Assembly (NCBI RefSeq): GCF_000709795.1
Contig: NZ_KL503802.1
Location: 310,001 to 374,000, forward strand
Direction: 5' to 3'
DNA length: 64,000 nt
Source: Bartonella bacilliformis Ver097
GTDB taxonomy: Bacteria > Pseudomonadota > Alphaproteobacteria > Rhizobiales > Rhizobiaceae
Made by a program: the position numbers and the translations under genes
Notes under the pieces: generated by a model
What the model was told of the DNA's origin: nothing
The model's input: only the letters and a program-made list of their open reading frames with translations
Databases searched by the model: none
In this document: in pieces, positions 36,586-41,755 of the stretch
Numbering within the stretch: position 1 is the stretch's first letter
How the letters are laid out: the number at the start of each line of letters is the position of its first letter

Positions 36586-36709
36586 AGCCCGCGATTAGAT
36601 TCTAATTCTGAACATTTTCTCATTTAAGTGGTTTGTTCACCTGAGAGACGTGCGTCTTCTCCTTGGTCGTTAGCAACGGCAATTGTGTTTGATACTTCAG
36701 GTTAAAAAA

Positions 36710-37357
36710 ATGTCTTCATCAAAGAGATTTTTAGCAAAACAGTATAAGGGCAGGCATATTATTGTTGCTAGTTTTGCTATGTGTTTCACGGTAACGATTT
36801 CTAATTTTTTGGTTCAATATCCGGTTCGTTTTGATATGCATGAGCTCTTGACCTACGGGGCTTTTACCTATCCGCTTGCTTTTTTGATCAATGATTTGAC
36901 AAATCGTTTTTCTGGTCCAACTGTTGCGCGGCGTGTAGTTTATGCTGGTTTTATCGTTAGTTTTGTTGTCTCTTGGGTTGTGGTGACACCACGGCTGGCT
37001 ATTGCTTCGAGTGCAGCATTTTTATTTGGGCAATTGCTTGATATTATTGTGTTCGCCCCTTTACGGCGTCAAACATGGTGGAAAGCACCGTTAGCAGCAG
37101 CGATAACAGGCTCAGCTTTAGATACGGTTTTATTCTTCGCGATTGCTTTTGCAGGCTCTTTTAGCTTTATTGATCAGATGACAGGTTATGTTAGTAGTTC
37201 TATCATTGATCATACAGTGTTTTTTGGGTTTGACGTTCCTGTTTGGTTATCTCTTGCTTTTGGTGATTTTTCAATCAAAATCCTGATGAGTTTATTGATG
37301 CTTTTCCCTTATGGTGTGATAATAAATGTTTTAACACTTTCTCATTTACTAAAATGA
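36710..37357 (+). CDS. yhhQ: Queuosine-precursor transporter (YhhQ/VUT family)
   Basis: A 215-residue inner-membrane protein with about six hydrophobic segments and the family phrases LTYGAFTYPLAFLINDLTNRFSG, FLFGQLLDIIVFAPLRR and the C-terminal SLAFGDFSIKILMSLLMLFPYGV. YhhQ imports queuine or preQ precursors for tRNA anticodon modification. The ATG at 36710 (MSSSKRF) is preferred over an upstream TTG. It lies between rpmB and the cobT gene. Presence suggests the organism salvages the base rather than, or in addition to, making it. Confidence 0.85.
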   Translation: MSSSKRFLAKQYKGRHIIVASFAMCFTVTISNFLVQYPVRFDMHELLTYGAFTYPLAFLINDLTNRFSGPTVARRVVYAGFIVSFVVSWVVVTPRLAIASSAAFLFGQLLDIIVFAPLRRQTWWKAPLAAAITGSALDTVLFFAIAFAGSFSFIDQMTGYVSSSIIDHTVFFGFDVPVWLSLAFGDFSIKILMSLLMLFPYGVIINVLTLSHLLK

Positions 37358-37571: not shown

Positions 37572-39467
37572 CTAGTCAAAGAGTGTTGCTAATTGTTGAA
37601 TGATAGCATTGGCGAGTTCTTCAGCATTTGGAATGGTGATTGCGCGTTTATAATGACGCGTTACATCATGACCAATCCCTATAGCCATTAATTCTATAGG
37701 AGAATATGTTTGAATTTCTTGAATAACGGCACATAAATGCTTTTCAAGGTAATTGCCAGGATTAACAGACAAGGTTGAATCATCAACAGGAGCTCCATCA
37801 GAAATGATCATCAGGATACGGCGATGTTCATGCCGTGAGAGAAGGCGTTGGTGCGCCCAAATAAGAGCTTCACCATCGATATTTTCTTTTAATAAACCTT
37901 CTTGCATCACTAAACCTAAATTGCGTCGTGCACGGCGCCAGGGTGTATCAGCACTTTTGTAGATGATATGGCATAAATCATTCAAACGTCCTGGATGAGG
38001 GGGTTTATTTTGCTTTTCCCATTCTTCGCGCGATTGTCCACCTTTCCAAGCTTTAGTGGTAAAGCCCAAAATTTCGACTTTAACACCACAACGTTCAAGA
38101 GTTTGCGCCAAAATATCAGTACAACTTGCTGCAACCGTGATGGGATGTCCTCTCATGGATCCGGAATTATCAATCAGTAAGGAAACAACGGTATCACGAA
38201 ATTGTGTTTCATATTCCTTTTTAAAAGAAAGAGGATACACCGGGTCAATAATAAGGCGTGGCAGTTTTGCTGTATCAAGATATCCTTCTTCAAGATCAAA
38301 ATGCCAAGCACGGTTTTGTTGTGCCATGAGGCGTCGTTGAAGGCGGTTTGCTAAACGTCCAACAATATTTTGAAAATGATTAAGTTGTTGATCAAGAAGA
38401 TAACGCAAATGGTTTAATTCGCTCTTAGAACAAAAATCTGTTGCTTCCAAAACTTCATCAAATTTCTGCGTAAAAATTTTATAATCAGCAAGTTTCTGCA
38501 TAGACTCAGATGTGTGGAGAGTCTGTTTGAATTCACTCGGTTTTTTTTGCCAAACACTGGTATGCTCTTGTTCAATACTTTCATCTGTGCTTGATTGAGT
38601 AGCGTGGGCTTTTCCTTCATCTTGTACATCATTTGTTTGTTCAGTTGTTTTTTGTTCCTCACTTTGCGTGTATTTTGTCTTCTCGTTATATTCTTCGTTT
38701 GTTTGTACGTGTGTATTTCCCTCCTTTGTTTGTTTTTTCACATTGGTATCATCAGACACATCATCTAGTGCTGAGGATATTTTTAAAGAAAACAGTATGT
38801 GACGGACAACACGTGCAAAAGCCTTTTGGTTATAAAGATGATGCGTGAGTTCGTGGAGTTCAGCTGCAGCTTGTTGTTCGATAGTGTGGCGCCATAAGTC
38901 CAGGATCGGGCCAGCTTCTTTTGGGGGAGAACGCTTTGTTATTTTTTCGCGTAATAAAAGAGCAATAGCTTCTTCTATAGGCGCTTCGTCTTGTGTACTA
39001 ATTCTTTGATAATGGGCTCTTTGATATTTATCAGCGAGCATGATTTCAAGATTTTGTGCTATCCCTTCCATAGTCAAAGTGCCAATGGCTTCGATACGTG
39101 TTTGCTCAAGAGCGTCAAAAATAGCGCGTGCTTTGAGTTCTTGTGGGGTGAACTGGGTGTGAATATGGGGGTCATGCCACGCTTTGCGTAAGCCCATGGA
39201 ATCACTTAATCCACGGGTTACCGCAACATCTTTGTGGGTTGCTTTGGCTGGGATCTCTGGTAAACGCACATGTGTATGACTCATCGATGGCTTATAATGA
39301 CCAAAAATAGTCTGAAGAGTGGATGTGCCAGCAATGGCACGCATGCAAGTAGACATAGCTCTTTTAAAAGCTTCAGCATCAAGTTTAAAAGCTTCGCTAT
39401 TAAGGGAGCTGTTGGGTAAGTGATGTTTCAGATTTTGGCTATTATTATCGCTGGCTTTTGAGGCCAT
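37572..39467 (-). CDS. cobT: CobT-like cobaltochelatase subunit
   Basis: A 631-residue VWA-domain protein. The N-terminal half is helical; a highly acidic, low-complexity linker (about residues 240-320, rich in E, T, K, Q) follows. The C-terminal VWA domain has the metal-site motif [11 protein letters not shown] and [13 protein letters not shown]. It is the CobT family, partner of AAA+ CobS in aerobic cobalt insertion into hydrogenobyrinate diamide. The start is ATG 39467; a TTG two codons earlier has an AAGGAA nearby. It lies 14 bases after cobS. No CobN or corrin-ring genes are in the window. Confidence 0.92.
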
Positions 39468-39481
39468 GATCAAGGATTTCC

Positions 39482-40486
39482 TTAAGGCAAGACAGTGTGA
39501 ATCAGTGATTCGGGAAGCTCTTCTCCAAAAGCACGCTGATAAAATTCCGCGACAGTTGCTCGTTCCAATTCATCGCATTTATTCAAAAAGGTTAAGCGGA
39601 AAGCAAAACCAACATTTTGAAAAATTTCAGTATTTTCTGCCCAAGTGATGACAGTACGCGGGCTCATCACTGTTGAAAGATCCCCATTTATGAAAGCTTG
39701 GCGCACCATATGGGCAACATGCACCATTTTTGAAATTGTTTTCTTTCCTTCAGCTGTTTGAAAAGATTTAACTTTTGCAGAAATAATGTCTACCTCATGA
39801 TCATGGGAGAGATAATTTAAGAGTGTCACAATAGACCAGCGATCCATTTGTGCTTGATTAATTTGCTGTGTACCATGATATAATCCTGTTGTGTCTCCAA
39901 GGCCAATGGTATTGGCTGTAGAAAAAAGACGAAATGCCGGATGCGGAGTTATAACACGGCTTTGATCAAGTAAGCTCAGTCGCCCAGAGGTTTCCAACAC
40001 CCGTTGGATCACAAACATAACATCGGGTCTTCCTGCATCATATTCATCAAAGACAAGAGCGACATTATTTTGGTAAGCCCAGGGCAAAATGCCCTCTTGA
40101 AATTCAGTAATTTGCAGACCATCCTTGATAACGATAGCATCTTTTCCGACTAAGTCGATGCGGCTAACATGGCTATCGAGATTAATGCGAATACAAGGCC
40201 AACAAAGACGTGCGGCTACTTGTTCAATATGCGTTGATTTGCCTGTACCGTGATAGCCAGAAACCATAACGCGGCGGTTAAAAGCAAAACCTGCCAAAAT
40301 CGCCAAAGTTGTTTGCGGATCAAAAAGATAATCGGGATCGACATCAGGAACATGTGGGCTTTTTTGACTAAAAGCAGGCACTTGCATATCCGTATCAATC
40401 TTAAAGATATCACGAACGCAGAGCGTGATATCAGGCATGTTTTTGTTGGCAAGATTCGTTTGTGTCATTGTTTTTGAAAGGCTCAT
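39482..40486 (-). CDS. cobS: CobS-like AAA+ cobaltochelatase subunit
   Basis: MoxR-type AAA+ ATPase of about 334 residues. Walker A is GYHGTGKST, Walker [14 protein letters not shown], and sensor-1 follows [11 protein letters not shown]; the N-terminal [17 protein letters not shown] is family-specific. With CobT it forms the ATPase module of the cobaltochelatase. The frame is open 15 codons upstream; [11 protein letters not shown] (40486) or MTQTN (40468) are the likely starts, and no ribosome-binding site decides between them. All ATPase motifs are intact, indicating continued selection. Confidence 0.92.
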
Positions 40487-40738: not shown

Positions 40739-41359
40739 TTAACATAAACCAGATTTTTTCAGCAAATTATAGGCGTTCAGAACATCACTAAAACGTTCCT
40801 CTGAAGAGCGGTTGCCACCATTAGTATCAGGGTGGTGCTTTTTGACCAGCTCTTTATATTTTATTTTGATATCTTGAGCTGAAGCATTTGCTTGTAAACC
40901 TAAAGTTTCAAAAGCTTTAGTTTCTAAGGGTTTTAATTTTCGTGTATTTGTTTTGGCTGCATGGCGTTGATTAAAAAGACTAAAGGGATCACGTATACGA
41001 TTTTGATAAGCAGCTGTTCCAGAGCGAATCGTTGCATAGTGAGTAGCAGCTTTTTTTGACGTGCTATTGTTCAATCCGCTAGACCATGTTGGGCGATGTC
41101 CTGTAAGGGCATCTTTTTGAAATTTTGCGATATCTTTATCACTAAGGCCTGAAAAATAATTAAAATTCTTATTGTAAGCACGTACATGATCGATGCAGAA
41201 GAACAAATATTGCCCTTCGCGATTGCGGCCTGCCGGTGCTTTGTGTGCACCTGTTTTTTCACAACTTTCCCATTGACACTGTTGTGTTTCTAATTCAGCC
41301 TGTTTTTTTTTATTGGAGCTGATACGAATTGAATCAAATAATTTAGATGTAATTGTCAT
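40739..41359 (-). CDS. J-domain protein
   Basis: A 206-residue protein with a C-terminal J domain containing the HPD motif in ELVKKHHPDTNGG, preceded by ALETLGL-like ETLGLQANASAQDIKIKYK. The N-terminal half has paired cysteines (CQWESCEKTGAHKAPAGR and FFCIDHVRAYNKNFNYF), a putative metal-binding region typical of this alphaproteobacterial family. As a DnaK co-chaperone its client is unknown. It is divergent from bolA and upstream of cobS on the same strand, a conserved rhizobial neighbourhood. Confidence 0.88.
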   Translation of the reverse strand: MTITSKLFDSIRISSNKKKQAELETQQCQWESCEKTGAHKAPAGRNREGQYLFFCIDHVRAYNKNFNYFSGLSDKDIAKFQKDALTGHRPTWSSGLNNSTSKKAATHYATIRSGTAAYQNRIRDPFSLFNQRHAAKTNTRKLKPLETKAFETLGLQANASAQDIKIKYKELVKKHHPDTNGGNRSSEERFSDVLNAYNLLKKSGLC

Positions 41360-41476: not shown

Positions 41477-41755
41477 ATGTCCACTGAAGTTCAAAAAAGA
41501 ATCGAAATAAAATTATGTGAGGCTTTTTGTCCACAAAAGCTTGAAGTGATCAATGAAAGCCATCTTCATGCCGGACATCATCATGGAGACCATGCTTTTG
41601 ATGGCCAAGGTGAAACACATTTTCGTGTGAAAATTCTGTCTTCTTTTTTTTCTGATATGACTCGGGTAGAAATACATCGGGCGATTTATAAAGTTCTACA
41701 AAAAGAATTAACGGAAAATATTCATGCTTTGGCGTTAGAGGTTGAAGGTATGTAA
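41477..41755 (+). CDS. bolA: BolA family protein
   Basis: A 92-residue BolA protein, partner of monothiol glutaredoxins in iron-sulfur handling. It has HLHAGHHHGDHAFDGQGETHFRV, with the conserved His used in cluster binding, and the C-terminal RAIYKVLQKELTENIHALAL helix. Length is normal for the alphaproteobacterial form. Divergent from the J-domain gene with a 117-base gap that must hold both promoters; the 3' end is close to the convergent xerC. Confidence 0.92.
   Translation: MSTEVQKRIEIKLCEAFCPQKLEVINESHLHAGHHHGDHAFDGQGETHFRVKILSSFFSDMTRVEIHRAIYKVLQKELTENIHALALEVEGM

Follow-up and report, generated by a model that had tools for sequence, protein, structure and literature searches.

Retention of the CobS-CobT AAA+/VWA pair without the cobaltochelatase subunit CobN in Bartonella bacilliformis and across the alphaproteobacteria

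Bartonella bacilliformis Ver097 was found to keep an intact CobS-CobT pair in a genome that shows no sign of B12 making or use, and the same retention without CobN recurs across the alphaproteobacteria. We propose, with a probability of about 0.65, that CobST is a MoxR-like AAA+/VWA remodelling machine that works independently of B12 on a putative, probably metal-related client. The independence from B12 comes from the genomic data and is very likely, much firmer than the metal-related nature of the client, which is probable from the phenotypes of Caulobacter cobT and from analogy.

Results

An intact cobS-cobT pair beside J-protein and BolA genes

The window, which is the whole 64-kb stretch of DNA analysed, belongs to a genome of 1,394,706 bases in 6 contigs that is called 100% complete; its nearest sampled relative is G436. 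On the minus strand, cobS (39482..40486, from an ATG) encodes an AAA+ ATPase in which the Walker A, Walker B and sensor motifs are all intact. It is followed after a gap of 14 bases between its stop and the next ATG by cobT (37572..39467, minus strand), the product of which has an N-terminal CobT domain, a linker and a C-terminal VWA domain with an intact MIDAS motif. The open reading frame of cobT spans 37572-39473, with the ATG at 39467 and an alternative TTG, six bases upstream of it, also open. CobS scored 631 bits against TIGR01650 (cut-off 558.6) and CobT 854 bits against TIGR01651 (cut-off 759), both of which are NCBIfam equivalog models with their own cut-offs, and the Pfam families PF06213 and PF11775 were also matched by CobT. 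Most of each protein is covered by its match to solved CobS and CobT chains, and the best CobS identity among the named genomes was 89% (B. vinsonii). Directly upstream of cobS lies a gene for a zinc-finger J-domain protein (40739..41359, minus strand; PF00226 at residues 149-202), and bolA (41477..41755, plus strand; PF01722) is divergent from it. The first-pass annotation had described an intact AAA+/VWA pair beside a J-protein and BolA, and the family models and coordinates confirmed this. A gene for a queuosine-precursor-type transporter (36683-37357) sits between rpmB and cobT, and a match to it was present in the fetched stretch of 60 of the 61 Bartonella loci.

The locus resembles the aerobic cobaltochelatase CobNST in that its CobS and CobT subunits are present above the equivalog cut-offs. 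It differs in that neither the large substrate-binding subunit CobN nor CbiC of the corrin pathway that supplies the substrate was found in the genome. With MoxR-like AAA+/VWA pairs it shares the arrangement of an AAA+ protein with intact Walker A and B motifs (CobS) adjoining a VWA protein with a MIDAS motif (CobT).

The search for B12 functions covered the whole genome. The profile PF02514, which covers CobN and also the Mg-chelatase large subunit, gave 0 matches and 0 candidates in the genome, window included. There was no match for the corrin gene CbiC/CobH (PF02570), by which the corrin pathway was probed, for the B12-binding domain PF02310 or for the cobalamin riboswitch RF00174. The earlier statement that no CobN or corrin gene occurs in the 64-kb window was borne out for CobN and CbiC, and the genome-wide search that had been proposed alongside it left both without a match.

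CobST is often kept without CobN

CobT was detected in 61/61 Bartonella genomes, above the family cut-off in 60 of them, and CobN in only 13/61. In none of the 13 CobN-positive genomes does cobN stand near cobT: by coordinates read by eye, the two are on different contigs or over 800 kb apart. A single Bartonella genome, G442 (L157:3097-4991), has a cobT split by a frame change in the linker, at about residue 289. The two halves are both conserved, and the split may be an error or a real loss.

We then considered the class as a whole, sampled with 387 alphaproteobacterial genomes of completeness 90 or more. CobT was found in 302 of them, a few matches being weak, and was absent from 85, many of which are small genomes; PF02514 (CobN and its relatives) was found in 168 and CbiC in 149. 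When the three were tabulated together, 143 genomes had CobT, CobN and CbiC, 22 had CobT and CobN without CbiC, four had CobT and CbiC without CobN, and 133 had CobT with neither; CobN without CobT occurred in three, and 82 had none of the three. The PF02514 matches of the 22 CbiC-negative genomes may represent the large subunit of Mg-chelatase, in phototrophs, or relatives of CobN that serve a different function. CobS was present in 79 of the 80 genomes searched among the 133 (the first 80 by handle number), 63 times above the cut-off, and in 9 of the 80 searched among the 85 CobT-negative genomes (six strong matches, one fragment at a contig end and two trivial ones). Hence CobS and CobT are largely present or absent together across the class, and CobST is often kept without CobN, the reverse, CobN without CobT, being rare (the three genomes above). 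Four CobS matches (G084, G101, G114 and G151) contain in-frame stops, TGA in two and TAA in two, which might reflect recoding, decay or error.

A cobN hidden in an assembly gap was considered and set aside, since the assembly of the window's genome is rated 100% complete and the same pattern occurs in at least 16 single-contig assemblies among the 133. The pair had been presented at first as a survivor in a genome that is losing pathways; its retention stood, but a view of it as a quirk of one genome did not, as the pattern is class-wide (133/387 genomes). On a tree of 102 concatenated CobS and CobT rows, a quick tree with some long branches, the presence of CobN required 19 changes of state, of which at least 10 are imposed by starred branches, in a count that does not separate gain from loss and in which draft genomes may hide a cobN. 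The tree omits five class loci (L217, L235, L262, L268 and L308) where cobS or cobT is missing nearby. In four of these, all from CobN-less genomes, the fetched stretch contains cobS but no cobT; in L308, which is CobN-positive, cobT is present and no cobS is nearby. CobT is present in all five genomes, indicating that the pair is separated there.

CobST might still aid the use, salvage or repair of imported B12 in species that do not synthesize it. A B12-binding match was retained in 112 of the 133 genomes with CobT but neither CobN nor CbiC, so that a link to B12 use is excluded for a minority only. The control genome of Caulobacter vibrioides fits this explanation as well, having CobT over the cut-off, a CobS match, a B12-binding match and a B12 riboswitch, with no CobN (PF02514) and no CbiC match. 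Against it, no B12-binding match was obtained from 21 of the 133 genomes, one of which is the window's, and from eight more the match was weak; the window's genome has no match for the B12 riboswitch either. The function of CobST would then have to differ between lineages. We regard the imported-B12 explanation as quite unlikely.

The neighbourhood of cobST is shared by genomes with and without CobN

A total of 160 loci were fetched by place (60 from Bartonella, 68 from CobN-less and 32 from CobN-positive genomes of the class) and the window was added to them. The 68 were picked for spread among the 79 with CobS, and the 32 came from the best-scoring CobT rows; the CobN-less loci represent 56 family codes. 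Among the 160 loci with a CobS, cobT follows in 155; of the other five, one is the split copy, and in four no cobT lies within the fetched stretch. A J-protein gene lies upstream of cobS, on the same strand and within 700 bases, in 60/61 Bartonella and 84/100 class loci. It is directly upstream in 47/48 CobN-less and 13/13 CobN-positive Bartonella loci, and in 58/68 and 26/32 class loci, respectively. Similarly, bolA is found upstream on the opposite strand within 3 kb of cobS in 60/61 Bartonella loci (47/48 CobN-less, 13/13 CobN-positive) and 76/100 class loci (52/68 CobN-less, 24/32 CobN-positive). The order of J-protein gene, cobS and cobT is thus mostly alike with or without CobN.

The J-protein was matched in all 80 named-genome loci, a set picked for CobS similarity. 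It carries an N-terminal finger of the pattern C-x4-C ... C-x2-H, and residues C28, C33, C55 and H58 together with the HPD at 176-178 were conserved in 85/85 rows. An R-P-T-W motif is also present class-wide, and Pfam names only the J domain of this protein. Its AlphaFold model was poor (mean pLDDT 67.6, pTM 0.32). Of 80 CobT-negative genomes, 49 encode the N-terminal domain, some of these being as small as 0.9 Mb, and it was detected in 44 of the 73 that also lack CobS, indicating that the J-protein has a life of its own. A J-protein dedicated to CobST is therefore not supported, as 49 of the 80 CobT-negative genomes tested (of 85) have it. Regarding the chaperone-like neighbourhood proposed in the first-pass annotation, the J-protein is a true neighbour but is not exclusive to CobST.

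The conserved neighbourhood of the class loci (L217-L316) is wider still, taking in 2-6 kb around cobS. Upstream it holds a CNNM/CorC-type membrane protein and genes judged by eye to resemble aroB and aroK; downstream comes a phytase-like esterase, and rpmB lies on the opposite strand. No clear client candidate was found among the commonest neighbours of the class loci.

The company of rpmB bears on another possibility, that CobST serves ribosome or RNP assembly as a bacterial counterpart of the AAA+/MIDAS machine midasin/Rea1. When CobS itself was excluded, midasin was the top match of CobS among solved structures (E 1e-26), stronger than the CbbQ/NorQ-type solved chains, which gave weak sequence matches only. 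An rpmB (L28) match was present in the stretch of 60/61 Bartonella and 53/100 class loci, and the mitochondrial AAA+/VWA protein VWA8 is reported to co-migrate with mitoribosome intermediates (PMC10743472). Nevertheless, rpmB stands on the opposite strand in 51 of 52 class cases, the midasin match spans only part of the AAA+ domain, and we found no functional support for such a role in bacteria, which makes it very unlikely in our view. VWA8 resembles CobST in combining AAA+ and VWA domains in one machine of unsettled function, and its authors linked it to metal insertion and respiratory complexes (PMC10743472); unlike the CobST pair, it is a single eukaryotic protein.

CobS and CobT remain under constraint without CobN

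The Walker A motif GxHGTGKS and the Walker B motif DEYD of CobS were invariant in 69/69 CobN-less rows, and the MIDAS residues DNSGS and SDG of CobT in 65/65. For comparison, we took the columns that never vary in 31 CobN-positive rows (143 in CobS, 164 in CobT). Only 1/143 and 7/164 of them, respectively, fell below 80% in the CobN-less rows, a larger and more diverse set in which 66/143 and 58/164 were strictly invariant. The mean conservation of CobT was lower in the CobN-less rows in every region, including the last hundred residues (0.80 vs 0.88). A lost CobN-specific surface was sought through these conserved columns, few of which were strongly lost at class level.

The persistence of the motifs and of most CobN-positive-conserved columns, as if the working geometry were unchanged, would suit a chelatase that inserts metal into another tetrapyrrole or ligand by means of a large subunit unrecognisable as CobN. 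Yet PF02514, although it takes in both CobN and the Mg-chelatase large subunit, yielded not even a candidate in the window's genome. Moreover, the 22 neighbour clusters seen most often at the class loci all have median lengths no greater than that of CobT, far below the size of a large subunit. A hidden chelatase of this kind is accordingly judged unlikely.

To gauge selection within Bartonella, median pairwise dN/dS (NG86) was calculated from pairs with dS of 0.1-1.2 in 60 loci, the split L157 being left out. In CobN-less Bartonella the medians were 0.084 for CobS and 0.158 for CobT, compared with 0.070 for L28, 0.079 for the J-protein, 0.125 for XerC and 0.163 for SURF1. In CobN-positive Bartonella, where only 25-32 pairs were usable, they were 0.021 for CobS and 0.031 for CobT, with 0.059 for L28, 0.022 for the J-protein, 0.064 for XerC and 0.101 for SURF1. 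Without CobN, the values for CobST rose more than those of L28, XerC and SURF1, and about as much as those of the J-protein, BolA and QueT; these medians come from non-independent pairs, and the two groups may differ in population size. CobS and CobT of Bartonella are thus under purifying selection without CobN, less tightly than with it, and part of the constraint on CobST may have gone with CobN.

This weaker constraint in CobN-less Bartonella, the one broken cobT (G442) and the absence of CobT from 85/387 class genomes could be taken as signs of a vestigial CobST that is being lost and persists through its neighbours. A remnant would hardly be expected to leave 60 of 61 Bartonella cobT genes above the family cut-off at dN/dS values of 0.08-0.16, or catalytic residues invariant in 69 CobS and 65 CobT rows without CobN, and the CobN-less loci fetched span 56 family codes. 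We rejected hitch-hiking, which is highly improbable given the dN/dS values, the invariance of the motifs and the repeated retention.

Discussion

The role beyond B12 synthesis that the first-pass annotation had suggested for CobST is supported by the B12-free genome, by the occurrence in Bartonella (CobT in 61/61 against CobN in 13/61), by the 133/387 class genomes, by purifying selection and by the reported phenotype of Caulobacter cobT (PMC12004947). In open-licence literature, outside which most subscription papers lie, we found no statement that CobST is kept without CobN across the alphaproteobacteria. The nearest published parallel is a remark that ChlI/ChlD-like products occur in genomes without chlH or cobN, their function being called unexplored (PMC9227772). 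Those pairs lack a large subunit too, but belong to other protein families and other bacteria, and the passages concerned contain no discussion of CobST without CobN.

Pairing of an AAA+ ATPase with a MIDAS/VWA protein is shared by CobST with NorQ-NorD and RavA-ViaA, although these are different families by sequence. The genes norQ and norD are located with the genes of their client, whereas beside cobST no client is evident. MoxR AAA+/VWA pairs of the NorQ-NorD and RavA-ViaA kind are described as inserting metal into, or modulating, respiratory enzymes (PMC13036017, PMC3893208, PMC10585395), and for NorQD a role in driving the insertion of metal into its client, nitric oxide reductase, is reported (PMC13036017). 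A mention of CobS was not found in two papers on NorQD.

In Caulobacter, copper and EDTA phenotypes of cobT are in print, and the gene is not strictly essential as insertions were scored (PMC12004947). Such phenotypes suggest a client that is sensitive to metal. Neither cobS nor cobT was found in the main text of gene-essentiality papers on Sinorhizobium, R. sphaeroides and Zymomonas, and cobS was not found in that of the R. leguminosarum paper. The papers on R. sphaeroides and R. leguminosarum do describe, in general terms, an effect of cobalamin synthesis genes on growth.

In the remodelling machine that we favour, CobST would no longer serve, or would never have served only, the insertion of cobalt into corrin. 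CobS would hydrolyse ATP in a ring and CobT would carry the client through its MIDAS/VWA domain, so that the machine may open or reshape a protein, most likely a metalloprotein, for the insertion, repair or removal of metal. Models for such an action would be NorQD on nitric oxide reductase and, as proposed, RavA-ViaA on respiratory enzymes; in species that have CobN, this subunit would be a second client. More tentatively, at somewhat less than even odds, CobST may have been first a general, ancestral metalloprotein-remodelling machine of the alphaproteobacteria, with CobN-dependent cobalt insertion as a side job. If so, CobST would be misnamed, and wrongly read in print as a B12 enzyme, in roughly one in three of the sampled genomes.

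Comparative and metagenome studies have treated CobS and CobT as genes of B12 synthesis (PMC2667541, PMC8269236), and CobT misleads as a marker of B12 synthesis in the 133/387 alphaproteobacterial genomes that lack CobN and CbiC. In B. bacilliformis, cobT is described as a predicted target of 4 of 19 infection-specific small RNAs, which was taken as bearing on B12 synthesis (PMC7717549), and this finding may be read differently. A widespread and conserved AAA+/VWA machine with a putative client is thereby exposed, and Caulobacter, where CobN and CbiC were not found and cobT has a metal-stress phenotype, offers a ready model organism for it.
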